Source: Cellulophaga sp. L1A9 (GTDB lineage: Bacteria > Bacteroidota > Bacteroidia > Flavobacteriales > Flavobacteriaceae). From it: a DNA stretch of 64,000 nt. The notes beneath the pieces were generated by a model that made no database searches, had not been told where the DNA came from, and worked only from the letters and a program-made list of their open reading frames with translations. The stretch spans positions 4,836,001 to 4,900,000 of the forward strand of contig NZ_CP047027.1 in NCBI RefSeq assembly GCF_009797025.1. Reading direction: 5' to 3'. This document shows positions 6,100-45,262 of this stretch, piece by piece. Position 1 is the first letter of the stretch. Every line of letters starts with the position of its first letter. The position numbers and the translations under genes are program-made.

Positions 6100-7098
6100 A
6101 TGATCAAAACAATAGTATTAAAACAAAGACCTGTTGGCAAACCAACAGTCTCAGATTTTGAATTCACACAGAGTGATAAAGAACTTGTCATTAATGATGG
6201 CGAATTACTCCTAGAAACTAGTTACGTTTCTGTAGATCCTTATTTAAGAGGACGCATGAGTGATGCTAAATCCTATGTACCACCATTTGAGGTTGGGAAG
6301 CCTATGAGCTCAGGGGTTGTAGCAAAAGTAATTGCTTCTAAAAATAAAAATTTTAACAATGGAGATTATGTTTCTGGATTGTTAGCATGGAAGACACAAC
6401 AGGTGTCTACAGGAGAAGGTCTTACCAAAGTAAATAAAGACTTAGCTCCTTTAAGTGCCTATTTAGGTATTTTAGGAATGACGGGTTTAACAGCATTTTT
6501 AGGCTTACAAGAAATTGGGAAACCTAAAGCAGGTGAAACGATTGTAATCTCTGGAGCAGCAGGTGCTGTAGGAAGTGTTGTGGGTCAGGTTGCCAAAATC
6601 TTAGGGCTACGCGTAATCGGAATTGCAGGTTCTGACGAGAAAATTGAGATGCTTACTTCTGATTTTGGTTTTGATGCCGGAATCAATTATAATGAAACGA
6701 AAGATATGAATGCCGCTATTAAAGCTGCTGCACCAAACGGAGTAGATATCTATTTTGATAATGTTGGAGGACCAATTTCAGACGCTGTTCTTTTTAACAT
6801 TAACAGATTTGCCCGTATGATTATTTGCGGTGCCATTTCTGTGTATAATAGCACAGAAATCCCAACAGGAGTTAGCGTTCAACCTTTTTTAGTTAAAAAT
6901 AGCGCACTAATGCAAGGCTTTATCGTTTCTAATTATCAGGATAAATTCCCAGAAGCAATGAAGCAATTGTCGCTTTGGTTGTCTGAAGGAAAATTGAAAT
7001 ATACCGAAACTGTAGTAGAAGGTTTTGACAATATCCCCAGTGCTTTCCTAGATTTATTCGAAGGAAAAAACAAAGGAAAAATGATTGTGAAGATTTAA
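6100..7098 (+). CDS. MDR-type NADP-dependent alkenal/2-enone reductase
   Basis: The 332-residue medium-chain dehydrogenase/reductase lacks the structural-zinc cysteines and belongs to the leukotriene-B4 dehydrogenase/CurA group. The N-terminal YVSVDPYLRGRMSD is characteristic, and the nucleotide fold SGAAGAVGSVVGQVAK lies in the middle. Members reduce the double bond of alpha,beta-unsaturated aldehydes and ketones with NADPH. It sits 11 bp downstream of the nitroreductase and 18 bp before the alcohol dehydrogenase. Removal of reactive enals fits the operon; curcumin-type substrates are known only for homologues. Confidence 0.9.
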   Translation: MIKTIVLKQRPVGKPTVSDFEFTQSDKELVINDGELLLETSYVSVDPYLRGRMSDAKSYVPPFEVGKPMSSGVVAKVIASKNKNFNNGDYVSGLLAWKTQQVSTGEGLTKVNKDLAPLSAYLGILGMTGLTAFLGLQEIGKPKAGETIVISGAAGAVGSVVGQVAKILGLRVIGIAGSDEKIEMLTSDFGFDAGINYNETKDMNAAIKAAAPNGVDIYFDNVGGPISDAVLFNINRFARMIICGAISVYNSTEIPTGVSVQPFLVKNSALMQGFIVSNYQDKFPEAMKQLSLWLSEGKLKYTETVVEGFDNIPSAFLDLFEGKNKGKMIVKI

Positions 7099-7116
7099 TA
7101 AAAGAAAAAAAAAGCT

Positions 7117-8277
7117 ATGAATAATTTTGAATATAAGAATCCTACTAAAATAATTTTTGGAAAGGATACTATTGGGAAATTAACAGCAGAAATTCCTGCT
7201 GACGCTAAGGTACTTATGCTTTATGGTGGCGGAAGTATTAAAAAGAATGGTATTTACGAGCAAGTGAAAACTGCATTAGCTAAGGTTGACCTTGTTGAAT
7301 TTGGCGGAATTCCTGCAAATCCGGAGTATGCCGTCTTAATGGATGCCTTAAAAGTAATAAAAGAGGAAAAAATCACCTACTTATTAGCCGTTGGTGGTGG
7401 TTCTGTAATTGACGGGACTAAATTTTTAGCTGCAGCGGCAGTATATGAAGGAGTAGAACCATGGGAAATGCTAAAGAATAAAGAGCGCCCAACAAAAGGG
7501 ATGCCTTTTGGAACTGTTCTTACCTTACCTGCAACGGGTTCTGAAATGAATTCTGGACTCGTGATAACAAGAGAAGAAACGAAAGAGAAATTAGCTATGG
7601 GCGGACCAGCACTATTCCCTACCTTCTCTATCTTAGATCCATTAGTAATTGCCTCTATACCTGAACGCCAATTGGCAAATGGAGTTACCGATGCTTTTAC
7701 TCATGTTTTAGAACAGTATATGACCTACCCTGCTGGTGGTTTGTTACAAGATAGATTCGCAGAAAGTATTTTACAAACCTTAATTGAAGTAGGACCTAAA
7801 GTAATTAAAGATCCAACAGATTACGAAGCTGGTGCCAACTTTATGTGGAGTTGTACCATGGCTTTAAACGGATTAATTCAACAAGGTGTTCCTGGAGATT
7901 GGGCTGTACACATGATGGGGCATGAATTAACTGCTTTATTTGGTATTGATCATGCAAGAACTTTAGCTGTAGTTGCTCCAAGCCATTACAAATACAATTT
8001 TGAAGCTAAGAAAGAAAAATTAGCGCAGTATGCAGAACGTGTTTGGAATATTACAGCGGGAAGTATGGATGATAAGGCTTATGCTGGAATTGAGAAGACG
8101 GAAGCTTTTTTCCACCAATTAGGAATCAAAACAAAACTATCTGAATACACAGATAAATTTGAAGGTACTGCCGAAGAAATTTCTAAACGTTTCACAGATC
8201 GTGGATGGTTAGGATTAGGAGAACGCCAAGCGTTAACTCCACAAGACGCAGAAAAAATTGTAAAAATGGCCTATTAA
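7117..8277 (+). CDS. iron-containing alcohol dehydrogenase (YqhD/BdhA-like)
   Basis: The 386-residue group III alcohol dehydrogenase has the nucleotide-binding GGGSVIDGTKFLAA segment and metal ligands in GVTDAFTHVLEQY (Asp, His) and MMGHELTALFGIDHAR (two His). YqhD-type enzymes reduce many aldehydes, including acrolein, malondialdehyde and glyoxal, with NADPH. Length is normal for YqhD (about 387). It follows the MDR reductase by 18 bp and precedes the DJ-1 protein by 9 bp. In E. coli yqhD is likewise under a regulator answering to aldehydes, which supports an electrophile defence role here. Confidence 0.92.
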   Translation: MNNFEYKNPTKIIFGKDTIGKLTAEIPADAKVLMLYGGGSIKKNGIYEQVKTALAKVDLVEFGGIPANPEYAVLMDALKVIKEEKITYLLAVGGGSVIDGTKFLAAAAVYEGVEPWEMLKNKERPTKGMPFGTVLTLPATGSEMNSGLVITREETKEKLAMGGPALFPTFSILDPLVIASIPERQLANGVTDAFTHVLEQYMTYPAGGLLQDRFAESILQTLIEVGPKVIKDPTDYEAGANFMWSCTMALNGLIQQGVPGDWAVHMMGHELTALFGIDHARTLAVVAPSHYKYNFEAKKEKLAQYAERVWNITAGSMDDKAYAGIEKTEAFFHQLGIKTKLSEYTDKFEGTAEEISKRFTDRGWLGLGERQALTPQDAEKIVKMAY

Positions 8278-8286
8278 TCGTTTTCA

Positions 8287-9093
8287 ATGAATTACATAAA
8301 ATCTGCAGTATTGGTACTGAGTATAATTACCAGTTCTGCCTGCAAAAATGAAAATAAACAAGCTTCTGAAAAAAGTTCAGAAGAAACAATAACAACTAAA
8401 AAAGAAGATAAAATGAAAGTACTATTTGTATTAACATCTCACGATAAATTAGGAGATACAGGAAAAAAAACAGGATTTTGGGTTGAAGAATTTGCAAACC
8501 CATATTATACTTTATTAGATAAAGGTGTAGCAATTACTATTGCTACCCCAAAAGGAGGAGCAGCACCCATTGACCCTAGTAGTGACTCACCAGATGCTGC
8601 TACGGAAGATACAGAACGTTATAATAAAGACGCAGAGGCTAAAGAAAGAATAGCGAATACTAAAAAATTATCGGATATGAATCCAGATGATTTTGATGCT
8701 GTTTTCTATCCAGGTGGTCACGGACCTTTATGGGATTTAGCAAATGACGAAACGTCTATTGCGCTTATTGAAACCTTCAATAAACAAAAGAAACCTATCG
8801 CCTTTGTATGTCATGCACCAGCAGCATTAAAAAGTGTTAAAGATGTTGACGGAAGAACGCCCCTTGTAAAAGGTAAAAAAGTAACTGGTTTTACTAATTC
8901 AGAAGAATCAGCAGTACAATTAACGGATGTAGTTCCTTTTTTAGTTGAAAATATGCTTATTGAAAACGGTGGTGTTTATTCTAGCGGAGCAGATTGGGGA
9001 GCTTATGCTATTCAAGACGGAAACTTAATCACAGGTCAAAATCCTGCTTCTTCAGAAAAAGTAGCTGAAAAATTATTAGAAGCCTTGAAATAA
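8287..9093 (+). CDS. DJ-1/PfpI (Hsp31-like) protein with lipoprotein leader
   Basis: The 268 residues hold a type-1 glutamine-amidotransferase-like DJ-1/PfpI domain. PGGHGPLWDL and the nucleophile elbow FVCHAPAALK (catalytic Cys) resemble Hsp31/glyoxalase III proteins, which convert methylglyoxal to lactate without cofactor. The first 19 residues form a signal ending in a Cys (ITSSAC), followed by a polar linker to residue 42. A second ATG at 8413 (MKVLFVLTSHDK) begins the domain exactly, so a cytosolic form is also possible. It is the last gene of the TetR operon and is followed by a terminator at 9113. Confidence 0.88.
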   Translation: MNYIKSAVLVLSIITSSACKNENKQASEKSSEETITTKKEDKMKVLFVLTSHDKLGDTGKKTGFWVEEFANPYYTLLDKGVAITIATPKGGAAPIDPSSDSPDAATEDTERYNKDAEAKERIANTKKLSDMNPDDFDAVFYPGGHGPLWDLANDETSIALIETFNKQKKPIAFVCHAPAALKSVKDVDGRTPLVKGKKVTGFTNSEESAVQLTDVVPFLVENMLIENGGVYSSGADWGAYAIQDGNLITGQNPASSEKVAEKLLEALK

Positions 9094-17802: not shown

Positions 17803-19356
17803 TTATTCTTCTGGCGGAAATCCATTTATCTCTTCAAAAACTTCATCAAAATTCTGACGTAAATAAGAGTTTAATTTTAATTTATAATCATCTTTCAACC
17901 ATTTTAAAAAGTTGAAAGTACTTCTACTGATACATTTTGCATAACTCTGTATTCTGTAATCAATGTCTTCATCTAGCAATTTCGCTAAACCTAAGGCATC
18001 ATAAACATCTTCGCTATTTTCTATACAAATTCTACCGTGTTGTTCTATAGAACGCTCTAGAACTACTTTAGAAGATTCTCCTTTGTAGGTTGCATCCGTG
18101 TAGACTTCTTTAATATCAAAATAAACCTCTTCAGACTTGGCAAATTGCACACGAATTTCTTCGGGCATTTCATGTCTAAAGTTACTTTCTATATCCTCAT
18201 CATTCTGAAGACGCTCCATGTAAAAGTTAGGAGACTTAAAAATCATTTGCCAATCTAAATCTGCTCCCCAAGGACCAAATCTATGGTAGTTATTTCCTAA
18301 ATCAATCACTTTAAAAGCCGATTTATTATTTAGGATACGTGAACCACGACCAATCATTTGATAGTAAAGCGTCAAAGACTTAGTTGCTCTGTTAAGAATA
18401 ATAGTGTCTATCGTAGGTTCATCAAAACCTGTGGTTAAAATACTTACAGATGATAGAATAGCATCTGGTGTTTCTTTAAACCATTTTAATATTTGCTTAC
18501 GCTGTTTTTTTGTTGCGGTATTGTCTAAATGCATTACCGGTAAACCAGCTGCTTTAAACGTATAATAAATTTGAATAGAGGTATTAATACCGTTATTAAA
18601 TATTAATGCTTTTTTACCTTTAGAATGTTTTAAATAAGCTTGCAATGTTTTATCCAACATTGCAGGACTCGTATACAGATCTTCAGATGATTTAACGGTA
18701 TAATCACCGTTTGATCCTACCTCAAGAGAGGTTAACCCCATATCATACTGAAAAACTTCAGCACGTGCTAAAAATTCATTTTCAATTAAAGAATGAATAG
18801 ACTCCCCTGTAATCAGTTCATCATAATTATCTTTCATTGGGAGTTCCTTACTAGAACTCAACGGTGTTGCCGTTACCCCAAGAACAAAAGCGTTCTCAAA
18901 AAACTTAAATAGTTTAGTAAAAGAATTGTAATGCGCTTCATCAATAATAACCAAACCGATATCAGATATATCTAGTTTCCCATCATTTAAACGATTGTTC
19001 AAGGTCTCCACCATTGCAACGAAGCAAATATATTGCTCTTGATCGTCTAAATTAGCCTTACTGTTTACCACTTTATTTGGCACCCCAAAATTAGTAAGCA
19101 TCGTTGATGTTTGGTTACACAGCTCTACACGGTGTGTCATCACTAAAACTTTCTTCTTATGGTTTTTCAAATATTGCCGTACCATTTCGGAGAAAATAAC
19201 GGTTTTTCCCCCTCCTGTTGGCAGTTGATACAGTAGGTGATAATTATCTGCTGCAGTATCGAACTTTTCAAAAATTTTATTAATCGCTCCTTGTTGGTAG
19301 CTATAAAGTTCTTTATCTGATTTTTTTTCTTGCAAGCCTGTTGCTATCTCCGTCAT
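17803..19356 (-). CDS. DEAD/DEAH-box SF2 helicase, paralogue 1
   Basis: The 517-residue superfamily-2 protein carries Walker A LLYQLPTGGGKTVIFSE (about 41-57), DEAH in LVIIDEAHYNSFTKLF, GVTATPLS (motif III-like) and the C-terminal helicase half with SILTTGFDEPTIDTIILNRAT and QMIGRGSR (motif VI). About 150 residues of unassigned C-terminal domain follow. The layout resembles the ResIII/UvrB-like branch (YqhH, RapA-distant) rather than DEAD RNA helicases. A second copy at 40468-41979 is clearly paralogous. No methylase or specificity subunit is adjacent, so a restriction role is unsupported. Confidence 0.88.
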   Translation of the reverse strand: MTEIATGLQEKKSDKELYSYQQGAINKIFEKFDTAADNYHLLYQLPTGGGKTVIFSEMVRQYLKNHKKKVLVMTHRVELCNQTSTMLTNFGVPNKVVNSKANLDDQEQYICFVAMVETLNNRLNDGKLDISDIGLVIIDEAHYNSFTKLFKFFENAFVLGVTATPLSSSKELPMKDNYDELITGESIHSLIENEFLARAEVFQYDMGLTSLEVGSNGDYTVKSSEDLYTSPAMLDKTLQAYLKHSKGKKALIFNNGINTSIQIYYTFKAAGLPVMHLDNTATKKQRKQILKWFKETPDAILSSVSILTTGFDEPTIDTIILNRATKSLTLYYQMIGRGSRILNNKSAFKVIDLGNNYHRFGPWGADLDWQMIFKSPNFYMERLQNDEDIESNFRHEMPEEIRVQFAKSEEVYFDIKEVYTDATYKGESSKVVLERSIEQHGRICIENSEDVYDALGLAKLLDEDIDYRIQSYAKCISRSTFNFLKWLKDDYKLKLNSYLRQNFDEVFEEINGFPPEE

Positions 19357-35835: not shown

Positions 35836-37164
35836 ATGAAAATTTTCAAAAGAATCCTACTCGTTCTTGTACTTGCATTATTTGTTATTGGTTATTTAAA
35901 TTATCCCAAATTAAATCTAATCGCCGGGTTCGCATCAAAAAACATGGCGTCTAGTATTTTTATTGGCGAAAGAACAGCAGCATCCGTAGCTGAAAATGAC
36001 AACAATGTTCCTCTCGTAAAACTAGCAGACGTGAAAATAGCTAAAAATAGTACAACGGGGACTGTATTTGGATTAATGCCAAGGAAAGCGGTTTATAGAG
36101 AAGGTTTAGGATGTGTATTGGTTAATGATTCTTATGATGAAAACAAACCTTATTTACAACCAAATAGAACAAAGGCAATTGATTCATCTTTTCCTTTTGA
36201 GACCTCACAACCACCAGATAGTTTATTTGATCATGTAAATTTCCCTAAATTAAATGCAGCAATAGCACATAGTTTTTCAGATGCTGAACTAAAGAAAACC
36301 CGTACGGTTTTAGTCTACCATAAAGGAAAAATTATTGCAGAAAGATATGCTGACGGATTTAATAAAGAATCACGTATTTTAGGATGGTCCATGACTAAGA
36401 GTATCATAGCTACCTTGTATGGAATGTTAGCATATGAAGGTAAAATAGATTTAGATATGCGGGCACCTATTGCTTCATGGCAAAAGGATGACCGAAAAAA
36501 CATAACGTTAAACCATTTACTACGTATGCAAAGCGGACTTGCTTGGGATGAAAATTACACGACTATTTCTGATGTAACAAAAATGCTTTTCCTAGCTAGT
36601 GATATGACTAAAGTACAGGCAGAAAAAGAAGCGGTAGCCAAACCAACGGAAATTTGGAATTATTCTTCGGGAACTTCTAATCTGCTTTCAGGTATTTTAA
36701 GAGATCGATTTGCAAATCGTCAGGATTATTTAGATTTCCCGTATAAAACTTTAATTGATAAAATAGGAATGCACTCTATGCTCCTAGAAGCTGATATGGA
36801 TGGAAATTACATCGCATCTTCTTATTCTTGGGCAACCACACGTGATTGGGCTAAATTTGGTATTTTATACCTCAATAAAGGAAATTGGAACGGTACGCAG
36901 TTATTTGACGAGAACTGGGTGAATTATATCACCACACCCACAAAACACTCGGATGGTGTATATGGTGCACATTTCTGGTTAAACGCCGGAGGTAAGTTTC
37001 CTGATGTACCCCGAGATATGTTTTCTGCAAACGGATTTCAAGGACAATATGTATTCGTAATCCCTTCTAAAGATTTAGTGGTTGTAAGAACGGGACTTTC
37101 TGAGAACCCTAATTTTAATGTGAATGAATTTCTAAGTGAGATAATAAGTGCTTTAAAAGAGTAA
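35836..37164 (+). CDS. serine hydrolase, class C beta-lactamase family
   Basis: The 442-residue protein has an N-terminal membrane anchor (residues about 5-22) and a beta-lactamase-fold domain. SMTKSIIATLYGMLAYEGKI holds the SxxK nucleophile and base, and IWNYSSGTSNLLSGIL holds the YSS equivalent of YxN. It resembles 6-aminohexanoate-dimer hydrolase and EstB-type esterases more than true AmpC, and the KTG box is degenerate, so antibiotic resistance should not be inferred. It probably hydrolyses an amide or ester in the periplasm. Divergent from the 3D gene. Confidence 0.88.
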   Translation: MKIFKRILLVLVLALFVIGYLNYPKLNLIAGFASKNMASSIFIGERTAASVAENDNNVPLVKLADVKIAKNSTTGTVFGLMPRKAVYREGLGCVLVNDSYDENKPYLQPNRTKAIDSSFPFETSQPPDSLFDHVNFPKLNAAIAHSFSDAELKKTRTVLVYHKGKIIAERYADGFNKESRILGWSMTKSIIATLYGMLAYEGKIDLDMRAPIASWQKDDRKNITLNHLLRMQSGLAWDENYTTISDVTKMLFLASDMTKVQAEKEAVAKPTEIWNYSSGTSNLLSGILRDRFANRQDYLDFPYKTLIDKIGMHSMLLEADMDGNYIASSYSWATTRDWAKFGILYLNKGNWNGTQLFDENWVNYITTPTKHSDGVYGAHFWLNAGGKFPDVPRDMFSANGFQGQYVFVIPSKDLVVVRTGLSENPNFNVNEFLSEIISALKE

Positions 37165-37206
37165 CCCTTTGGTCTTTGAATCTCGTAAAAAACAAATTTT
37201 AAGAAA

Positions 37207-37239
37207 CTCACCACAACTATTCCTTAGTTGACAACAATA
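37207..37239 (+). promoter_or_regulatory. 21-bp-phased direct-repeat element, copy 1
   Basis: CTCACCACAACT (37207-37218) and TTGACAACAATA (37228-37239) are direct repeats starting exactly 21 bp apart. The second overlaps a TTG that could be a -33 element for a weak -7 box (TGTATTTG, 37252-37259). The same 33-bp layout recurs at 38064 and 43970. Confidence 0.65.
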
Positions 37240-37261
37240 TTTTCGAGAACATGTATTTGCA

Positions 37262-37366
37262 TCTTAAATTTACACTGTAGTTAAGATATTAGATTAGTTT
37301 TTCATTTTTCATATAGTGTTCTCGTAAAAAGAGCTTTAACCAATGGTTAAAGCTCTTTTTCAATTT
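37262..37366 (+). ncRNA. candidate small RNA, copy 1
   Basis: A transcript of about 100 nt would start after the box at 37252-37259 and end at the perfect hairpin 37326-37360. Positions 37298-37329 hold a block ending CATATAGTGTTCTCGTAAAA that recurs with one missing T at 38154-38184. There is no ORF longer than nine codons. Spacing from the direct repeats to this block is 70 bp here and 69 bp in copy 2, which argues for a duplicated functional unit. Confidence 0.55.
37326..37360. terminator. bidirectional terminator
   Basis: AAAAAGAGCTTTAACC and its exact complement flank AAT. It ends the candidate small RNA on the plus strand and the DEAD-like gene on the minus strand. Confidence 0.88.
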
Positions 37367-37384
37367 ATTAAACCTGCTAAAAGA

Positions 37385-37999
37385 TTATTTGGTTTCTACA
37401 ATATGCGCATTCGCCATAAATGCGTCTTGCATACGAGTCATACGTTCATCAAACTCAGTTCCAAATACAATATATTGGCATTTTTCTAAACTCTCTGGTG
37501 TTCTAATTAAATCTGAATATGCACTTGCTTTAATTAAAAATTCCGCATCTTCAACCATAAACATTTTAAGAGCTCCTAGGTTAATTCCATTTAAATAGAA
37601 TATTTTATTCAACCGTTTAGGTGTTGCAATAACAACATCTACACCATCGTAAATATCGGCACGCTGGTCTTCCAAATTCTGCTCATCGTATGCACAATAG
37701 ACCCGTAAGTCCATTCTGCGTATGTACTTATCAAACTCTGCTGCCAACTCAAGCGCAGATTTTTTATCTTTTACAAAAATCAATGCTCGGGGCGCATCTT
37801 CAAAAGGCTTACATTCTAATTTCTGAAGTACCGCGATAACAATGGCTGTCGTTTTACCTGCTCCCTGAGGTGCAATCCCAAAAACACTTGCACCTCCCTT
37901 TATTTTAGGGAGTATTGCTTTTTGGAATTCTGTATACTGTGTAATTCCATGATTACTTAGGACTTCTTTTAATTCTGGCTGTAACTTTTTAAACGACAT
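37385..37999 (-). CDS. single-domain DEAD-like helicase protein with degenerate motif II
   Basis: The 204-residue product covers only the N-terminal RecA-like domain of a DEAD-box helicase: a Q-motif-like FQKAILP, Walker A IAPQGAGKTT (43-51), and ATPKRL (motif Ib). Motif II reads VEDAEF (149-154), so the usual DEAD is lost, and the SAT motif is replaced by FGTE. No C-terminal helicase domain follows; the stop is followed by a terminator, and no second-half sequence was seen. It may bind RNA or ATP without unwinding, or regulate other helicases. Two small-RNA-like copies flank it. Confidence 0.8.
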   Translation of the reverse strand: MSFKKLQPELKEVLSNHGITQYTEFQKAILPKIKGGASVFGIAPQGAGKTTAIVIAVLQKLECKPFEDAPRALIFVKDKKSALELAAEFDKYIRRMDLRVYCAYDEQNLEDQRADIYDGVDVVIATPKRLNKIFYLNGINLGALKMFMVEDAEFLIKASAYSDLIRTPESLEKCQYIVFGTEFDERMTRMQDAFMANAHIVETK

Positions 38000-38063
38000 A
38001 ATTTGATGTATTCGAAATAGTTTTTTTGTATTCTTTTTAAGCTAAATAACAACTTTTAAAACG

Positions 38064-38096
38064 TTCACCACAATTATGGAGGTGTTCACAACAATA
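38064..38096 (+). promoter_or_regulatory. 21-bp-phased direct-repeat element, copy 2
   Basis: TTCACCACAATT (38064-38075) and TTCACAACAATA (38085-38096) start 21 bp apart and align without gaps to copy 1. It lies upstream of the second candidate small RNA and divergently upstream of the DEAD-like gene at 37999, so it might affect both. Confidence 0.65.
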
Positions 38097-38117
38097 GTTT
38101 TAAAAAGGTATATGTCT

Positions 38118-38216
38118 TGTATACTTTAGCAGTGTAATCAAAACGAAATAAAATTTTTCATTTTCATATAGTGTTCTCGTAAAAGGCCTTTTCTTAATTG
38201 AATAGGTCTTTTTTAA
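38118..38216 (+). ncRNA. candidate small RNA, copy 2
   Basis: The conserved block at 38154-38184 (ending CATATAGTGTTCTCGTAAAA) is followed at once by a hairpin (AAAAGGCCT with AGGTCTTTT, one G-U pair, 38181-38210) and a T run. Upstream sequence aligns with copy 1 in length and partly in sequence. No coding potential was seen. The transcription start is inferred by analogy and is uncertain. Confidence 0.55.
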
Positions 38217-38264
38217 TTCCCTAAAGTGAAACTATACGTATACAGTATTCATATTCCACCCGGT

Positions 38265-39119
38265 TTAAGGAATCCATTTATTTTTACCAAAGTCGGGCTT
38301 ACGCTTTTCTAAAAAGGCATTCCTACCCTCTTTAGCTTCCTCTGTCATATAAGCCAAACGTGTAGCTTCACCCGCAAATACTTGCTGCCCCACCATACCA
38401 TCATCAGTTAGATTCATAGCAAATTTAAGCATCTTTATAGAGGTTGGCGATTTTTCTAAAATCTCTTGCGCCCACTGAAAAGCAGTATCCTCTAATTCAT
38501 CATGAGGAATAACAGCATTTACCATACCCATTTCAAAAGCTTCTTGAGCAGAATAATTTCGTCCTAGAAAGAAAATTTCTCTCGCTTTTTTCTGACCTAC
38601 CATTTTTGCTAAATATGCAGAACCATACCCGCCATCAAAACTAGTAACATCGGCATCCGTTTGCTTAAATATGGCGTGTTCTTTACTCGCTAATGTTAAA
38701 TCACAAACCACATGTAAAGAATGTCCGCCACCTACTGCCCAACCAGGAACTACCGCTATAACTGCTTTTGGCATAAACCGAATTAAGCGCTGGACTTCTA
38801 ATATATTTAAGCGATGCATTCCATCCTCACCAACATACCCTTGATCTCCCCTAGCTCTTTGATCGCCACCGCTGCAAAAAGAATACACCCCATCTTTCGT
38901 TGATGGCCCTTCTGCTGCTAACAAAACAACTCCTATAGAAGTGTCTTCTTGTGCATCATAAAATGCTTGGTATAATTCACTTGTAGTTTTTGGTCTAAAT
39001 GCATTACGCACATTTGGTCTATTAAATGCTATACGCGCAACTCCATCACACTTTTTATAGGTAATATCTTCAAACTCTTTTACCGTTTTCCAGTCGATTT
39101 TTTTCATTTTCAATTTCAC
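38265..39119 (-). CDS. menB: 1,4-dihydroxy-2-naphthoyl-CoA synthase
   Basis: The 284-residue crotonase-fold enzyme matches MenB: WKTVKEFEDITYKK at the start, FNRPNVRNAFRPKT, the oxyanion segment GVYSFCSGGDQRARG, VPGWAVGGGHSLHVVCDLTLAS, TDADVTSFDGGYGSAYLA and the C-terminal NAFLEKRKPDFGKNKWIP. MenB closes the naphthoquinone ring in menaquinone synthesis, the respiratory quinone of this phylum. Other men genes are not adjacent. An in-frame ATG at 39107 (MKKIDW) is an equally good start. Confidence 0.95.
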   Translation of the reverse strand: MKLKMKKIDWKTVKEFEDITYKKCDGVARIAFNRPNVRNAFRPKTTSELYQAFYDAQEDTSIGVVLLAAEGPSTKDGVYSFCSGGDQRARGDQGYVGEDGMHRLNILEVQRLIRFMPKAVIAVVPGWAVGGGHSLHVVCDLTLASKEHAIFKQTDADVTSFDGGYGSAYLAKMVGQKKAREIFFLGRNYSAQEAFEMGMVNAVIPHDELEDTAFQWAQEILEKSPTSIKMLKFAMNLTDDGMVGQQVFAGEATRLAYMTEEAKEGRNAFLEKRKPDFGKNKWIP

Positions 39120-39129
39120 TTTAATGCTT

Positions 39130-39137
39130 CAAAGATA
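39130..39137 (-). promoter_or_regulatory. -7 box of menB
   Basis: On the minus strand TATCTTTG, a full consensus match, lies 11 bp upstream of the first menB ATG and 23 bp upstream of the second, which slightly favours the second start. Confidence 0.6.
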
Positions 39138-39229
39138 AGAGAAAATATATGGATAGTTTAGTGAAACACCAATGGTCTTCTTAGACTTTCAAACCGTTTT
39201 TAGAATGATGGAAAAGAGCTCTTCTGTTC

Positions 39230-40465
39230 CTAAGAATTTTTAGCTTCTATCCATTTAGCCATATACTTGGTACTTTGCATACTTTGATGTTGCAATAACC
39301 CCCCTACTATATTGTTTTGTCTATGGAGTATTATGTTTTTTTGGAGTTTTTCTAAAATCATTACAAACTGATTTTCTAAACGGACAGCATCATAGTTAGA
39401 TTTTAGAATTTTATATCCGTTAGCCTGAGCTTCTATCCATTGCTCTTCCTTAGTATATAATGCAACGGCTTTCCTAACAAAGTCTACCTCATCTGTAGCA
39501 ATTGCACCATTCCATGGCAAATTATCTGCCATGCCCTCTGCTCCAATAGCTGTAGTTATACTTGGCGTACCAAAACGCATACTATCTAGAAGTTTTCCTT
39601 TAATTCCTGCTCCAAAACGCAAAGGTGCTAAATTCAACTTTGCACTTGTAAAAGTATCTTTTAAATTTTTCGTAAATCCCTGAATATAGAAACCTTCAAT
39701 AGGTTTATGCATTTGCAAAACTTGTTGGGAGAGGTATGAACCATAAATATGCAAATTAGCGCCTGGTAATTCTTTTTTTATTTGAGGCCAAATTTTAGTT
39801 TTCAACCACAATACCGCGTCTACATTAGGAGCATGCTTACCATTACCAATGCATATGAAATCTTTTCGATTTAAAAAATTTGGATACTGCGCTATTTGCT
39901 CCTCTGAAACTGCATGTACCATAAAAGGCAAGTGGAGTAATAATGCTGGATCTATTTTAGCCTCTTCTTGTAAAATTTGCATTTCAAAACTTGAAATAAT
40001 CAATGAGAGATCACAGCGGTATATACTAGCCAATTCTCTTTTAGCCACATCACTTTGGAGCCATAAAGAAGCAGAGAATGGACTATTTTTTTTGAATAAT
40101 TCTTGACGGATAATTCGTAAACTATGCACATCTTCTGTGTCTAAAATACGTATGGCATCAGGGACGTGTTCTGCAACTCTCCATCCAAACTGTTCTTCAA
40201 TGATAAAACGATCAAAAACAACAACATCAGGCTGTAACTCTGAGATAAAAACATCAAAAGACGGGTTATTTAATTCAATTTTCGCCTTGACAATATTTAA
40301 TTCCTGTAAATCTATGGTAAATTGAGATTCGGCCGCCGTACTTGCAAAAGTAACCTGAACGTTGTTTTGAAGAAAAACCTGAAGCAATTGCATGATTCGG
40401 GTTCCCGCAGCAGTGGTAAGCTCAGGCCAATTAACACCTATAAATAGCACTTTTTGCATTCGCAT
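39230..40465 (-). CDS. glycosyltransferase, GT4-like
   Basis: The 411-residue protein has a two-Rossmann GT-B layout: an N-terminal GVNWPELTTAAGTRIMQLLQ, and the nucleotide-sugar half with FICIGNGKHAPNVDAVLWL, HIYGSYLS and the acceptor-type NLAPLRFGAGIKGKLLDSMRFGTPSITTAIGAEGM. The sugar and acceptor are not predictable. It starts 2 bp after the second helicase gene on the same strand, so they are co-transcribed, an odd pairing with no obvious shared function. No other polysaccharide gene is next to it. Confidence 0.85.
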   Translation of the reverse strand: MRMQKVLFIGVNWPELTTAAGTRIMQLLQVFLQNNVQVTFASTAAESQFTIDLQELNIVKAKIELNNPSFDVFISELQPDVVVFDRFIIEEQFGWRVAEHVPDAIRILDTEDVHSLRIIRQELFKKNSPFSASLWLQSDVAKRELASIYRCDLSLIISSFEMQILQEEAKIDPALLLHLPFMVHAVSEEQIAQYPNFLNRKDFICIGNGKHAPNVDAVLWLKTKIWPQIKKELPGANLHIYGSYLSQQVLQMHKPIEGFYIQGFTKNLKDTFTSAKLNLAPLRFGAGIKGKLLDSMRFGTPSITTAIGAEGMADNLPWNGAIATDEVDFVRKAVALYTKEEQWIEAQANGYKILKSNYDAVRLENQFVMILEKLQKNIILHRQNNIVGGLLQHQSMQSTKYMAKWIEAKNS

Positions 40466-40467
40466 GT

Positions 40468-41979
40468 CTATAGTTTCTCAGAAAATTTTTGAGAGATTTT
40501 TAAACGTAATTTACGCTCATAATCTTCCGCCAGCCATTCTTTGTAGTTTTTAGTATTGTTCATAATACAATACGAATATAAACGAACACGATATTCAATA
40601 TCATCTTTGAGTTGTTTGGCAAGAATTCGTGCATCAAAAACATCCTCGCTATTTTCAATACAGATTCTAGCATGCTGTTCAATACTATGTTCCAGAACCA
40701 ATTTGGATTTTTTTCCTGCTGCAAAAACTTTTTTATACTCTTCTTTTACATCAAAACTTAAGTTATCAGATTTAGAGAATTGCGCACGTAAATCATCCGG
40801 CATTTCATACACAAAATCACGTTCAATTTCTTCATCATTTCTAATGTTTTCCAGATAAAACTCTGGGAAAAGAAAAATTTCTTTCCAATCAATTGGAGCA
40901 TCCCACATACCAAAACGTGCAACATTATTCCCCATATCAATTACGGTAAATTTATCTTTATTTGGCAAAATACGGGAACCTCTACCAATCATTTGAAAAT
41001 ATAGGGTGAGTGATTTTGTTGCTCTGTTTAATATAATAGTTTCTACTGTGGGCTCATCAAAACCAGTGGTAAGAATACTCACCGAGGAAAGGATTGCTCC
41101 AGGGGTTTCAGAAAACCACTTTAAGATTTCTTTTCGTTCTGTAGCCGTATTTTTATTATCTAAGTGGCGTATAGTATAACCCGCTTTTTTAAAAGATTCA
41201 TATACATACCTAGACGTATTGATCCCATTATTAAAAATTAACGTTTTTGTGCCTTTTGCAATATCCTCATAGGTTGATATTAACTTGGTAACCATACCAT
41301 AATTACCATAAAGTTCATCAGAAGATTTTACAGTATAATCGCCGCCAACACCTAATTTAAGTGTTTTTAAACTTACATCTTTATGGTACACCTCGGCTTT
41401 CGCTAGAAAATTCTTATCAATTAAAGATTGTATCGATTCACCGATGATTAGCTTCTTATAGTTATCCTTCATCGGAAGCTTAATATTGGAGCTCAGCGGA
41501 GTAGCCGTAACCCCAAGAATAACTGCTTTTTCGAAATATTTAAAAAGTTTACGAAAAGAGTTATAGTGAGCTTCATCAATAATAACAAGACCTATATCAT
41601 TAAGCTCTACTTTATCTTCCTGAAGTCTATTGTTCAGTGTTTCTACCATAGCCACGAAACACATATATTCATCTTGATCTACAAGCTCTTTAACACTACT
41701 GTTAATAACCTTATTTTTAACGCCAAAAGTTTTTAGCATTCTAGAGGTCTGAGCCCCTAGTTCTATTCGATGCGTTAGCACAATTACTTTTTTCTTACGT
41801 TCGGTAATAAAACGACGCGCAATTTCTGAAAAAACTACTGTTTTTCCTCCCCCTGTGGGTAGTTGATATAAGAGATTAACATCGTCGTTAGATTCATTTA
41901 AAAACGTAAAAATAGTATTCAAATCTTCTAACTGATAATCGTAAAGTGTCTTTTCTGTTGTATGGTTTTGTACCTTCAA
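40468..41979 (-). CDS. DEAD/DEAH-box SF2 helicase, paralogue 2
   Basis: The 503-residue protein matches the 17803-19356 helicase along its whole length. Walker A LLYQLPTGGGKTVVFSE, LVIIDEAHYNSFRKLF, GVTATPLSS, SILTTGFDEPTVETIILNRATKSL and QMIGRGSRIL are nearly the same, and so is the C-terminal EHSIEQHARICIENSEDVFDA block. Clear paralogy implies duplication before or within the family. The substrate (RNA or DNA) is unknown. It is coupled to a glycosyltransferase gene. Confidence 0.88.
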   Translation of the reverse strand: MKVQNHTTEKTLYDYQLEDLNTIFTFLNESNDDVNLLYQLPTGGGKTVVFSEIARRFITERKKKVIVLTHRIELGAQTSRMLKTFGVKNKVINSSVKELVDQDEYMCFVAMVETLNNRLQEDKVELNDIGLVIIDEAHYNSFRKLFKYFEKAVILGVTATPLSSNIKLPMKDNYKKLIIGESIQSLIDKNFLAKAEVYHKDVSLKTLKLGVGGDYTVKSSDELYGNYGMVTKLISTYEDIAKGTKTLIFNNGINTSRYVYESFKKAGYTIRHLDNKNTATERKEILKWFSETPGAILSSVSILTTGFDEPTVETIILNRATKSLTLYFQMIGRGSRILPNKDKFTVIDMGNNVARFGMWDAPIDWKEIFLFPEFYLENIRNDEEIERDFVYEMPDDLRAQFSKSDNLSFDVKEEYKKVFAAGKKSKLVLEHSIEQHARICIENSEDVFDARILAKQLKDDIEYRVRLYSYCIMNNTKNYKEWLAEDYERKLRLKISQKFSEKL

Positions 41980-42098
41980 AAGCTGCCCAAGATTTAAATT
42001 TTAGCTGGTATTTCTGTTATTTATGTACAAAAATGCCAATTTTACAAAACTAGCAGATTTTTGTGCTTAAATAAAATATTAGTTCTTAAATAAATTTT

Positions 42099-42611
42099 TT
42101 AAGTATCAATTTTATCTAAAACTCTAGAAAAGTCTTCAAGGTTTGGCCAACGCTGTTCCTCTACAGAAGTATAAATAACAGCAATACGTTTATTAAAATT
42201 TGGCAACAGGTTTTCCTGAGAAATATAGGTAATCGCTTGATCAAATGAGTTGAGCATACTTTTGTAAAACGTATCTGCGACATTCTTTTCTGAGGAAAAA
42301 GATTGTGCTATTTCTAGATTATACAACATCAAATCTGCCAAAAGATAAGACTCTACCCCAAGTTTGAGGTAATGCTTTATAAATTTTTGAGCGATAGATC
42401 TTCGTGCCCGTGCTCTTTTACGCCGAATAGGAAAATATTCATTTGAAATTTTAATTTTTGCCGCTTGAATTAGCTTATCCTCTTTTGGGTTGAAGATAAA
42501 ATCATAATATTCTTTGACCACAGGAAATCTTACATACAAATCTACAAGTTGTGCTTCCAATTCTTTTTTTGGTGCTTCTGATACGAATTTTTTCAAGGCT
42601 GTCTTACTCAT
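42099..42611 (-). CDS. conserved hypothetical helical protein (DUF6155-like)
   Basis: The 170 residues are mostly helical and basic in the middle (IRRKRARARRSIAQKFIKHY), with no signal or membrane segment. The N-terminal pattern (TALKKFVSEAPKKELEAQLVDLYVRF) and a following EYYDFIFNP segment remind me of DUF6155 proteins of Bacteroidota, but I am not certain. It has an excellent promoter whose -7 box ends six bases before the ATG, implying a leaderless mRNA. Divergent from rpoD. Confidence 0.75.
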   Translation of the reverse strand: MSKTALKKFVSEAPKKELEAQLVDLYVRFPVVKEYYDFIFNPKEDKLIQAAKIKISNEYFPIRRKRARARRSIAQKFIKHYLKLGVESYLLADLMLYNLEIAQSFSSEKNVADTFYKSMLNSFDQAITYISQENLLPNFNKRIAVIYTSVEEQRWPNLEDFSRVLDKIDT

Positions 42612-42617
42612 AGACTA

Positions 42618-42649
42618 CAAAGATAAGCTGCTCAAAAGTTGGAGGCAAA
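42618..42649 (-). promoter_or_regulatory. promoter of the DUF6155-like gene (leaderless)
   Basis: On the minus strand TTTG, a 20-bp spacer and TATCTTTG (42618-42625) match both promoter elements. Only TAGTCT separates the box from the ATG, so transcription should begin at or beside the start codon. Confidence 0.72.
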
Positions 42650-42755
42650 TTTTCCGATTCCTTAAATTTTTCATAAATATGAGGCTTATTTACCCATATA
42701 TTAGGAAATGTCTTTTTTAAAACGTATAATGTAAGTTCGAACAATAGATAGATAT

Positions 42756-43619
42756 ATGAGGCAACTTAAGATAATTAAGCAAGTAACTAATAGAGAGTCA
42801 AAATCATTAGATAAATACTTGCAAGATATCAGTAAAATAGATTTAATAACCGCAAATGAGGAGGTTGATTTAGCGCAACGAATTAGAGAAGGTGATCAAT
42901 TAGCCTTAGAAAAATTAACTACGGCAAATTTACGTTTTGTAGTATCTGTTGCTAAACAATACCAGAATCAAGGCTTAACATTGCCCGATTTAATTAATGA
43001 AGGAAACGTTGGTTTAGTAAAAGCAGCCAAACGTTTTGATGAAACAAGAGGGTTTAAATTTATTTCATATGCAGTTTGGTGGATTAGACAAGCGATTTTA
43101 CAAGCATTAGCAGAGCAATCTCGTATTGTACGGTTACCGCTGAATAAGATTGGTTCTATAAACAAGATTAAAAAAGCTTTTTCTTATTTAGAGCAAGCAC
43201 ATGAAAGACCTCCTTCTGCAGAAGAAATTGCAAAAGAGTTAGAAATGACCGTGAGTGAAGTACAGCAGTCTCTTAAGAATACGGGAAGACACGTATCTAT
43301 GGATGCTCCCTTAAAAGAAGGGGAAGATTCTAACTTGTACAATGTAATAGGATCAGGAGAATCTCCTAACCCTGATAAACAATTATTACAACAGTCTTTA
43401 AATATTGAAATCAATAGAGCGTTAGAGACTTTGTCGCAACGTGAAGCAGATGTAGTAAAACTTTATTATGGTATTGGTGATCAACATTCTATGACCTTAG
43501 AAGAAATAGGTCAGACTTTTGATTTAACACGTGAACGTGTACGTCAAATTAGAGAAAAGGCAATTCGTAAATTGAAACACAATTCTCGAAGTAAAATACT
43601 TAAAACCTATTTAGGTTAA
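42756..43619 (+). CDS. rpoD: primary sigma factor RpoD (Bacteroidota type)
   Basis: The 287-residue sigma-70 protein starts [25 protein letters not shown]. It lacks region 1.1 and the long non-conserved insert, as in the Bacteroidota primary sigma. Region 2 ([58 protein letters not shown]), region 3 and region 4 ([27 protein letters not shown]) are complete. It recognises the TTTG/TANNTTTG promoters seen in this window. Monocistronic, with a strong terminator. Confidence 0.96.
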
Positions 43620-43622
43620 AAT

Positions 43623-43654
43623 AAAAAAAGGCTCGCAATTTGCGAGCCTTTTTT
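43623..43654. terminator. bidirectional terminator, rpoD and small peptides
   Basis: AAAAAAAGGCTCGCAA and TTGCGAGCCTTTTTT form a perfect stem. It ends rpoD rightward and the small-peptide transcript leftward. Confidence 0.92.
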
Positions 43655-43674
43655 ATGGATATAATTCTCTTTTT

Positions 43675-43776
43675 CTAAGAACGATTTAATTCGTTGATAT
43701 TATAATTACCTAATATTTCATTCAAATTATTGATGAAATTTACATAAGCTGAGTTTTCTTGATTCTTGTTTGACAT
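43675..43776 (-). CDS. 33-residue peptide, downstream member of a tandem pair
   Basis: An ATG at 43776 starts 33 codons ending in TAG. The middle reads YVNFINNLNEILGNYNINEL. It aligns without gaps to the peptide encoded at 43810-43908 through the pattern Y-x-x-F-h-x-x-L-N-E-I-L and a later E-L. There is no signal peptide; an amphipathic helix is likely. The start is 33 bp after the upstream ORF and the stop is 21 bp before the terminator, so the gene fits the transcript exactly. Confidence 0.6.
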   Translation of the reverse strand: MSNKNQENSAYVNFINNLNEILGNYNINELNRS

Positions 43777-43809
43777 AGGTTTATTTTGTTTATACGTTAA
43801 TGCCTCTTT

Positions 43810-43908
43810 TTAAAAAAAATCTAATTCTACTAATTCATTTAAACTTAAAATCTCATTGAGATCTTGTAAGAATGATAAATATTCTTCTCCGTAGGTATCG
43901 TAAAGCAT
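43810..43908 (-). CDS. 32-residue peptide, upstream member of a tandem pair
   Basis: An ATG at 43908 starts 32 codons ending in TAA. The core is EEYLSFLQDLNEILSLNELV, sharing YxxF and LNEIL with the neighbour at 43675-43776. It is acidic and helical, with no signal. The phased direct repeats at 43970-44002 lie 62 bp upstream. Conservation between the two tandem frames is the main evidence that both are translated. Confidence 0.6.
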   Translation of the reverse strand: MLYDTYGEEYLSFLQDLNEILSLNELVELDFF

Positions 43909-43969
43909 AATTAAAGGATTTGGGTTAATTACACCATAAATGTATATGAATAGTTGAAGTGTTACAATT

Positions 43970-44002
43970 TAATGTGGTGAAACTCTTGAAAATTGTGGTC
44001 AA
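43970..44002 (-). promoter_or_regulatory. 21-bp-phased direct-repeat element, copy 3
   Basis: On the minus strand TTGACCACAATT (44002-43991) and TTCACCACATTA (43981-43970) start 21 bp apart and align without gaps to the elements at 37207 and 38064. It sits between the yaiO stop and the small peptides and points toward the peptides. Confidence 0.62.
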
Positions 44003-44029
44003 ATTAAATTGAAGGAAAAAATGCTCCGT

Positions 44030-45262
44030 TTAAAACTTAATTTGATAGATAAAACCTACTGTACCCGCTATGAAGAAGTTTCCTGGATCAAAACTTAATT
44101 CTTGCCTAGTAACTCCCACCATTGTTTTTAAGGCATTAGGATTGTTTTTAAATGTAAATTGATACTCTAGATTAAGCTGCTGAGTTTCTAAGTACAGTAA
44201 GGTTTCTGCCAATAAGGTAGTTCCGTTTTTAAACTGCTTTAGATCTGAAATGTACCCATAACTAAAATTGGCTCCCCAATAATTATAGTTGTCTTTTAAA
44301 TATTTACGTACTAAAATATTCCCTGAAACACTAAGGCTATTGCCTGCTGATGGTGTGATATAAGGGCGGAGCGAAAAAAAGTAATTACCACGATATACGC
44401 CAAAGGAAGCCGTATAAATATAAACATCACTGGTTACAAAGTTGAGATAACGCGCTCCTAACGAAACTTCCATAGCCTTTGGTAAGTTTACATAGAGCTC
44501 TGCTCCTGCCCTATGCTTAGGAAAAATACTAGCGTCTGAAAAACCATAATTTGTATACATATATACTTTTTTAGAAAATTGAGGATAAGCATCAACCTCA
44601 TACTGAACACCACTTGTATTAAATCTATTGGCATAGTTTATTCTAGGAATGATACTCCCATATTTTGTTTTTCTAGTATAACTTATACTTGTCAAATACA
44701 TGGGGTCGTAGACCTTATTAAAAACATCTATACTCCCAGAGACATCAACACTATTTTTAAATTCTTTTATACCTGGTAGTATACTATCTGATTCTTGAAT
44801 AGATAATTCTTTTTCACGAGAAGTAGCAATAGCTTGGATGGCCTCTTCCTTTAAAACCATAATATCCATATCCTCCCGTAAATAAAGTAAGGCCTTATTA
44901 GACAACCCTATAGCTGTACTATAGTTCTTACCATAGATTTCATTTTTAATAGCGGCAACCCATACTTCTTTATTGTTTTTATTGGAAGACGTTATTTTAT
45001 TAAATTCTATTCTAGCTTCATCATAAGCAGCATCCCAGCTATAAGTCTTTGCCAATAAGGTACGTACTTCTGTGTAGTTAGGATATTTAGAGAGAATTAA
45101 CCGCAGCGTATCTCTCGCCTCTCCTCTACGTCCAGCAAAAGCTATTTCTCGCGCATTTAAAAAAGAAGCATCAGCATCGCCAGTAAACACAGACTCCTGT
45201 GCTTTTACGCCGCATACTATCGCACATAACACTAGTAATAGGTATATTCTTCTCTTATCCAT
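44030..45262 (-). CDS. YaiO-family outer-membrane beta-barrel with TPR domain
   Basis: The 410-residue protein has a signal peptide (LLLVLCAIVCGVKAQ), TPR-like helices (about 30-150; AREIAFAGRRGEARDTLRLILSKYPNYTEV) and a C-terminal YaiO-type barrel (about 175-410) of alternating strands ending in an aromatic-x-F-type C-terminus (FIYQIKF). A TPR-barrel combination is what PgaA, BcsC and NfrA use to pass polysaccharide through the outer membrane. It is the last gene of the six-gene operon, 1 bp after the phosphotransferase stop. Confidence 0.87.
   Translation of the reverse strand: MDKRRIYLLLVLCAIVCGVKAQESVFTGDADASFLNAREIAFAGRRGEARDTLRLILSKYPNYTEVRTLLAKTYSWDAAYDEARIEFNKITSSNKNNKEVWVAAIKNEIYGKNYSTAIGLSNKALLYLREDMDIMVLKEEAIQAIATSREKELSIQESDSILPGIKEFKNSVDVSGSIDVFNKVYDPMYLTSISYTRKTKYGSIIPRINYANRFNTSGVQYEVDAYPQFSKKVYMYTNYGFSDASIFPKHRAGAELYVNLPKAMEVSLGARYLNFVTSDVYIYTASFGVYRGNYFFSLRPYITPSAGNSLSVSGNILVRKYLKDNYNYWGANFSYGYISDLKQFKNGTTLLAETLLYLETQQLNLEYQFTFKNNPNALKTMVGVTRQELSFDPGNFFIAGTVGFIYQIKF

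Follow-up and report, generated by a model that had tools for sequence, protein, structure and literature searches.

A two-half-site promoter before predicted multicopy small RNAs and micro-peptides of Flavobacteriaceae, and its candidate LytTR two-component system

LytTR control of a regulatory RNA is an already known kind of circuit: in Staphylococcus aureus the LytTR response regulator AgrA drives RNAIII, one long RNA, through repeats, and the kinase of that system senses a peptide. The multicopy small RNAs (sRNAs) LhrC, Qrr and the Cia-dependent sRNAs belong to other phyla and to other regulator families than the RNA considered here. The subject of this analysis is a 33-bp element of two direct repeats that stands at three intergenic sites in a 64,000-nucleotide stretch of the Cellulophaga sp. 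L1A9 genome (contig NZ_CP047027.1, positions 4,836,001 to 4,900,000; the whole stretch is called the window below). It differs from AgrA-RNAIII in that several short predicted sRNAs and a TPR-HisKA_2 kinase are involved; AgrA-RNAIII binding figures as a reference title in the accessible part of PMC4847170. Multicopy sRNAs under a two-component system are a known kind, since expression of all five copies of LhrC in Listeria depends on the two-component system LisRK according to the extract of PMC4132741, and our locus is likened to it, by description only, in having several sRNA copies under one such system. FopS of Bacteroides thetaiotaomicron, in the portion of PMC11697453 available, represses SusC-type mRNAs, binds RbpB, is transcribed from canonical sigma-ABfr promoters under an inducing regulator that the paper calls unknown, and has copies spread in Bacteroidaceae; the same portion names Qrr and the Cia-dependent sRNAs as multicopy sRNAs. 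The predicted sRNA resembles FopS in its phylum (Bacteroidota), its multicopy paralogues, a single-stranded 5' region with a conserved seed and an intrinsic terminator, but is set apart, on the basis of that description, by a fixed LytTR-type operator and by two-component linkage. Rfp18 of Flavobacterium psychrophilum, described in the available text of PMC9723704 as genus-conserved and as pairing through its third stem-loop, is also a Flavobacteriaceae sRNA with effects on mRNAs and was compared by description only.

The computed evidence comprises the layout of the promoter, the conservation of the RNA unit, the genes linked to it and co-distribution. It indicates that a single dedicated system, pairing a TPR-HisKA_2 kinase with a receiver-LytTR (REC-LytTR) response regulator, probably uses the elements as activator sites and would through them drive sRNAs and micro-peptides. 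An earlier, sequence-only reading of the window had placed the element at 37207-37239 (+), 38064-38096 (+) and 43970-44002 (-), and these positions and strands were confirmed. The three sites match the pattern TTSACMACAATW-N9-TTSACMACAATW with 2, 0 and 1 mismatches in that order; 0.01 matches were expected in the window by chance, and three were reached in 0/100 shuffles. The promoter features at these sites are as follows.

37207..37239 (+): predicted LytTR-type operator of sRNA copy 1, half-sites ACCACA at 37210 and ACAACA at 37231
37265..37272 (+): -7 box TAAATTTA of sRNA copy 1, 34 bp after the start of the second half-site; predicted RNA start about 37277
38064..38096 (+): predicted LytTR-type operator of sRNA copy 2, half-sites ACCACA at 38067 and ACAACA at 38088
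38122..38129 (+): -7 box TACTTTAG of sRNA copy 2; predicted RNA start about 38134
43970..44002 (-): predicted LytTR-type operator of the micro-peptide unit, half-sites ACCACA at 43999-43994 and 43978-43973; promoter profile E 4e-4, strict geometry
43937..43944 (-): -7 box TACATTTA of the micro-peptide unit; predicted RNA start about 43932

The genome-wide scan that the earlier reading had proposed returned 8 matches in the L1A9 genome (at most 3 mismatches) and 0 for the reversed-pattern control. Two of the five matches outside the window are promoters of further copies of the window sRNA. Another, at 485084, is also matched by the promoter profile described below (E 4e-4) and has a -7 box at +33; that at 1948374 is a weak profile match (E 0.3) with the box at +35; and that at 2863483, before a PAS kinase gene and with the box at +35, is absent from the 57 matches of the profile in this genome.

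The element is the upstream part of a fixed promoter consisting of two half-sites and then a Bacteroidota -7 box (TAnnTTTG-like). This was read from 164 distinct exact copies of the sRNA core with at least 170 nt upstream, taken from the genus, the family and public loci and including related strains. Two ACMWCA half-sites exactly 21 bp apart precede 143 of these copies, and in 133 of the 143 a -7-like box, TAnnTTW, lies exactly at +34 from the start of the second half-site; the next commonest half-site spacings were 42 bp (26 pairs, as three consecutive half-sites give) and 18 bp (10). Since so many distinct copies hold the strict pair, full 12-mers are unnecessary, so that the 21-bp phase of the earlier reading stands and its 12-mer repeat gives way to ACMWCA as the conserved half-site. 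The flavobacterial sigma-A box is TAnnTTTG at -12 to -5, as given in the accessible text of PMC9723704, which would therefore place the half-sites at about -67 and -46. Counted by column, 102 sites selected for having the half-site pair and the box show a conserved block of roughly 8-12 bp at each half-site and a TTT-Y stretch (Y being C or T) spanning roughly -36 to -33, near the expected -33 element. The operator abuts the promoter and would therefore be placed as expected of an activator site. Usual LytTR operators consist of two repeats, direct or inverse, each 9-11 nt long and separated by 11-13 nt (PMC4847170, in the part available), and this repeat length and spacer are found here through the 21-bp phase. 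The LytTR-type geometry suggested earlier is thus supported by the form of the repeats, together with a linked REC-LytTR regulator that is co-distributed with the core.

Behind the 37.2-kb and 38.1-kb sites lies a shared unit, CATATAGTGTTCTCGTAAAA leading into a hairpin and a T-run, referred to here as the type-A sRNA.

37277..37366 (+): predicted sRNA copy 1, core 37310-37329, terminator hairpin about 37326-37361; both ends predicted
38134..38217 (+): predicted sRNA copy 2, core 38165-38184, terminator hairpin about 38181-38213; both ends predicted

The core 20-mer occurs in five exact copies in the 5.07-Mb L1A9 genome, of which two lie in the window and the other three some 2.5 Mb from it, and these intergenic paralogues with one core and a terminator are what is expected of a multicopy sRNA; genomes of the genus hold 1-7 core matches (at most 2 mismatches). 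In an alignment of 39 units the AU-rich leader varies, a 30-nt stretch (UUUUCAUUUUCAUAUAGUGUUCUCGUAAAA) is almost invariant, and the terminator covaries, with two-sided changes in 9 of its 14 pairs. The 30-nt stretch is unpaired in the consensus fold, save for its last four A, which pair with the T-run, and the single-sequence fold z-scores of window copies 1 and 2 are -5.0 and -2.2. In public loci of at least 7 kb, none of 128 exact cores lies inside an open reading frame (ORF) of at least 150 amino acids (aa), versus 1688 of 2200 random positions there. The idea that the core encodes a peptide was set aside after direct reading: an additional base stands immediately before it in window copy 1, and a start codon shared by the copies was not seen. 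One common downstream RNA for all three sites was also rejected, as the 43970 site has ORFs and no type-A core; the small non-annotated transcripts of the earlier reading therefore fit as predicted units of two kinds, two sRNAs and one micro-peptide pair. A scan of window positions 36900-44200 with Rfam (E<=1) gave seven matches, each below its gathering score, and none to FopS, the presence of a FopS model in that Rfam not having been checked. Among the titles and abstracts listed from the open-licence literature, none concerned this sRNA or a LytTR-driven sRNA in Bacteroidota, and the predicted sRNA of about 85-90 nt is apparently undescribed so far. Two of the three distant copies adjoin short histidine kinase ORFs: in this cluster (L015, 2.36 Mb) sRNA copies alternate with kinase ORFs at 6949-7857, which has HATPase_c and a HisKA part just under cut-off, and at 8248-8841, which has HATPase_c alone and no recognised HisKA part. 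These short kinases may belong to the sRNA circuit.

The candidate regulator emerged from the genes around the sRNA. Clustering of the ORFs at 128 sRNA loci gave as top neighbours those of the window itself, an enoyl-CoA hydratase family gene (44) and a serine-hydrolase gene (42), followed by a TPR-HisKA_2 kinase (33) and a receiver-LytTR response regulator (32). In the linkage sample, 120 public loci retrieved by the sRNA core and containing 138 core copies, the regulator was present in 31 and the kinase in 31, and the order regulator, sRNA, kinase on a single strand was found for 28 of the 28 core copies in loci with both genes. The distance from the regulator stop to the core is 133-201 bp (median 180, 31 copies), and a strict half-site pair lies within 650 bp downstream of the regulator in 25 of 30 loci (none in 2; 3 not parsed). 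The regulator protein of locus L121 matches the receiver and LytTR domains (PF00072, PF04397) above cut-off, as a response regulator of this type should; a solved-structure search matched 127 sequences, and among the 60 matches listed the match is in the receiver part. The earlier reading had seen no LytTR regulator gene beside the elements, and the linked REC-LytTR lies outside the window: the L1A9 orthologue, 87% identical to the L121 protein, is at 3,984,634-3,985,398 with the kinase behind it. Between the two genes (L185) lies a different unit with the same promoter, CCCAAATCTTATCATTTTC plus a terminator, of the CCCAAAUC type. A second operator with a -7 box stands directly before the TPR-HisKA_2 kinase gene by the strict pattern, and the kinase therefore appears to be in the regulon.

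Core and regulator are distributed together. With at most 2 mismatches, the core was found in 22 of 60 relatives, namely all 18 genomes of the genus, L1A9 included, and four other genera of the family, and in none of the 23 genomes of other families among the 60; the linked regulator is present in 18 of 18 genomes of the genus. The sole core match of one Cellulophaga genome (G007) has 2 mismatches and lacks the repeats, and the match in G025 is chance-like. Among the matches listed, the core occurs in Allomuricauda, Flagellimonas, Maribacter, Eudoraea, Muriicola, Cellulophaga, Arenibacter, Croceitalea, Euzebyella, Saonia, Robiginitalea and Pseudozobellia. In a sample of 149 genomes, one per genus, the regulator (E<=1e-70) was found in 30, at 85-94% identity to the query in 25 and at 57-78% in five. 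The core is present, with at least one exact copy each, in exactly the 25 genomes whose regulator is at least 85% identical, and the five with a diverged regulator are without it (25/25 versus 0/124; Fisher p 6e-29, not corrected for relatedness). The count of 0/124 was taken after 2-mismatch matches in G025, G127, G138 and G141, four of the 119 genomes without the regulator, had been set aside for having no half-site within 150 nt upstream. A reversed-core control gave 2 matches in the 149 genomes, 1 in the 60 and, at 3 mismatches, 1 in L1A9. The LytTR gene at 17 kb of the window, used as a second control, was found in 27 of 149 genomes (13 of the 25 core genomes versus 14 of the 124 others, p 2e-5) and is thus associated with the core, but far more loosely than the linked regulator. 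The ORF lists show two similar helicase-like genes in the window, 17803-19356 (-) and 40468-41979 (-), one of which adjoins this 17-kb gene.

A promoter profile (R1) was built from 50 of the 102 sites, 44 from contigs with titles other than Cellulophaga and 6 from contigs of unshown title, and no training site is an exact duplicate of one in the L1A9 loci checked. Its four best matches in L1A9 are promoters of four of the five type-A copies; E is 3.7e-4 for the fifth, near 4e-4 for both 485084 and window 43970, and 0.006 for the unit that separates regulator from kinase. The profile was then applied, at E<=0.05 and with at most 150 candidates scored per genome, to 31 chosen genomes: 10 of the 24 others with a regulator of at least 85% identity, all 5 with a diverged one, G007, and 15 of the 119 negatives. 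The first group had 13-21 matches per genome, the diverged group 4-17 and G007 17, or 4-21 in the 16 regulator-positive genomes versus 0-4 in the 15 negatives; the test is not fully independent, because a site used in training also occurs unchanged among those tested (L077, L275). What follows the promoter varies. G007 has five tandem sRNA units 225-229 bp apart (L286, about 1503-2568) with a constant promoter and changed core ends. In the diverged-regulator group, type-A cores persist in altered form in G093, CCCAAAT-like motifs mark the units of G110 and G123, and the promoters of G095 and G069 are followed by other sequences.

The third element of the window precedes ORFs, and the earlier proposal of one regulon of small RNAs and peptides is supported by predicted sRNAs at two sites and conserved micro-peptide ORFs at this one.

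43924-43917 (-): CCCAAATC in the leader of the micro-peptide unit, downstream of -7 box TACATTTA
43810..43908 (-): micro-peptide ORF 1, 32 aa, 84% identical over 31 aa in L102 and L159
43675..43776 (-): micro-peptide ORF 2, 33 aa, 61% identical in L102 and 42% in L159

The pair is conserved in two other loci, L102 (from a Maribacter metagenome-assembled genome) and L159, and in L159 it stands behind a promoter with the same 21-bp and 34-bp geometry (the upstream region is not covered in L102). A 35-aa peptide at the weak operator at 1948374 has a 69% match in L276, there behind a strict promoter. CCCAAATC recurs behind the same promoter type, at L185 5597 (+) and L273 4327 (-) as in the window and in several other genera, and may be a second conserved RNA element. 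R1 had twelve L1A9 matches at E<1e-3; beyond the sRNAs, 485084 and 43970 these are 2064055, with half-sites 21 bp apart and the box at +35 on direct reading, 3527119 (L246, E 6e-6), with a single clear half-site directly before an ORF, and 1892213, 4040791 and 424813. Candidate sites lie before an IgGFc-binding/DUF11 gene beside an SprB-repeat gene and downstream of a PorP/SprF gene. Two near-identical genes for extracytoplasmic function (ECF) sigma factors (L274, 2969-3550 and 4329-4964) each have a promoter-like element upstream, with one half-site mismatch, the 21-bp spacing and a -7 box.

Several findings weigh against a dedicated kinase-regulator system acting through these sites and RNAs. 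The operator before the L1A9 TPR-HisKA_2 kinase gene was missed by the profile at E<=10 and was found by the strict pattern only, and 21 of the 164 core copies have no strict half-site pair. The type-A loci of L1A9 are unlinked to the regulator, about 0.89 and 1.6 Mb away, and 15 further LytTR matches (16 in total) are present in that genome. Co-distribution is not independent evidence, because the genomes are related, and the best match in the weakest positive genome (G069, E 2.5e-4) is barely better than that in the best negative one (G063, 3.7e-4). At the RNA level, the core of window copy 1 partly pairs with its leader in the single-sequence fold, and when the core was paired with 787 start regions it beat 60 of 60 dinucleotide shuffles, but its excess at starts over gene interiors was matched by 10 of 60.

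By analogy with FopS, base-pairing with mRNAs through the invariant stretch is the most likely action of the sRNA. It is rather doubtful, although this alternative survives best, that the RNAs instead titrate an RNA-binding protein through the invariant motif in the manner of CsrB, with copies and tandem arrays raising the dose. Titration would suit a core that is mostly unpaired and nearly invariant across copies and genera, the five-unit array of G007 and the want of a clear target among the 787 start regions, but each RNA has a single motif, and the promoter stays constant while the motif differs from clade to clade, a pattern equally compatible with changing mRNA targets. The lipoprotein gene at window 30548 may be a target, as a lead only: its start region has a predicted core pairing of -19 kcal/mol, and GAACAT lies upstream in several relatives; the 217 residues of its protein that were tested had no Pfam match.

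Less probable still is that the elements are operators of another regulator, a LytTR paralogue or other direct-repeat binder, with the linkage an accident of common descent in one clade. The 16 LytTR matches, the relatedness of the genomes and the distance of the type-A loci from the regulator speak for this view, but it must contend with the invariable gene order, an operator before the TPR-HisKA_2 gene itself, promoter sites also in the five diverged-regulator genomes and the much lower co-distribution of the window's other LytTR gene. That the units are a dispersed repeat, mobile or terminator-like and with no regulatory role, is scarcely credible: they are multicopy, intergenic and end in terminator hairpins, but the same neighbours recur, leader and terminator vary (the terminator with covariation) around an unchanging promoter and core, and the same promoter precedes protein genes and different RNAs.

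Under the dedicated two-component system that we favour, two protomers of the phosphorylated REC-LytTR protein would sit on the half-sites near -67 and -46, separated by two turns of the helix, with a sigma-A type promoter (TTT-Y at about -36 to -33 and the -7 box) directly downstream. They would activate, rather than repress, the multicopy sRNA, other small RNAs (CCCAAAUC type), the kinase gene itself and the micro-peptide mRNAs. The sRNA would then act in trans, base-pairing with mRNAs via UUUUCAUUUUCAUAUAGUGUUCUCGUAAAA, and its several copies would add dose. We put forward more tentatively, as possible though not yet the better bet, that the TPR-HisKA_2/LytTR pair is an RNA-output signalling system, acting mainly through RNA and micro-peptides from a rigid promoter across at least 25 genera, behind which the RNA units are duplicated, lined up in tandem and altered in sequence from clade to clade.

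Flavobacterial post-transcriptional regulation has been charted only sparsely, and the gain here is a candidate for a new sRNA family together with its promoter code and a candidate sensor system. The five tandem units of G007 offer a natural experiment in sRNA evolution. One regulator would be tied to micro-peptides and a sensor kinase as well as to the sRNAs, and more weakly to surface-protein and ECF sigma factor genes.

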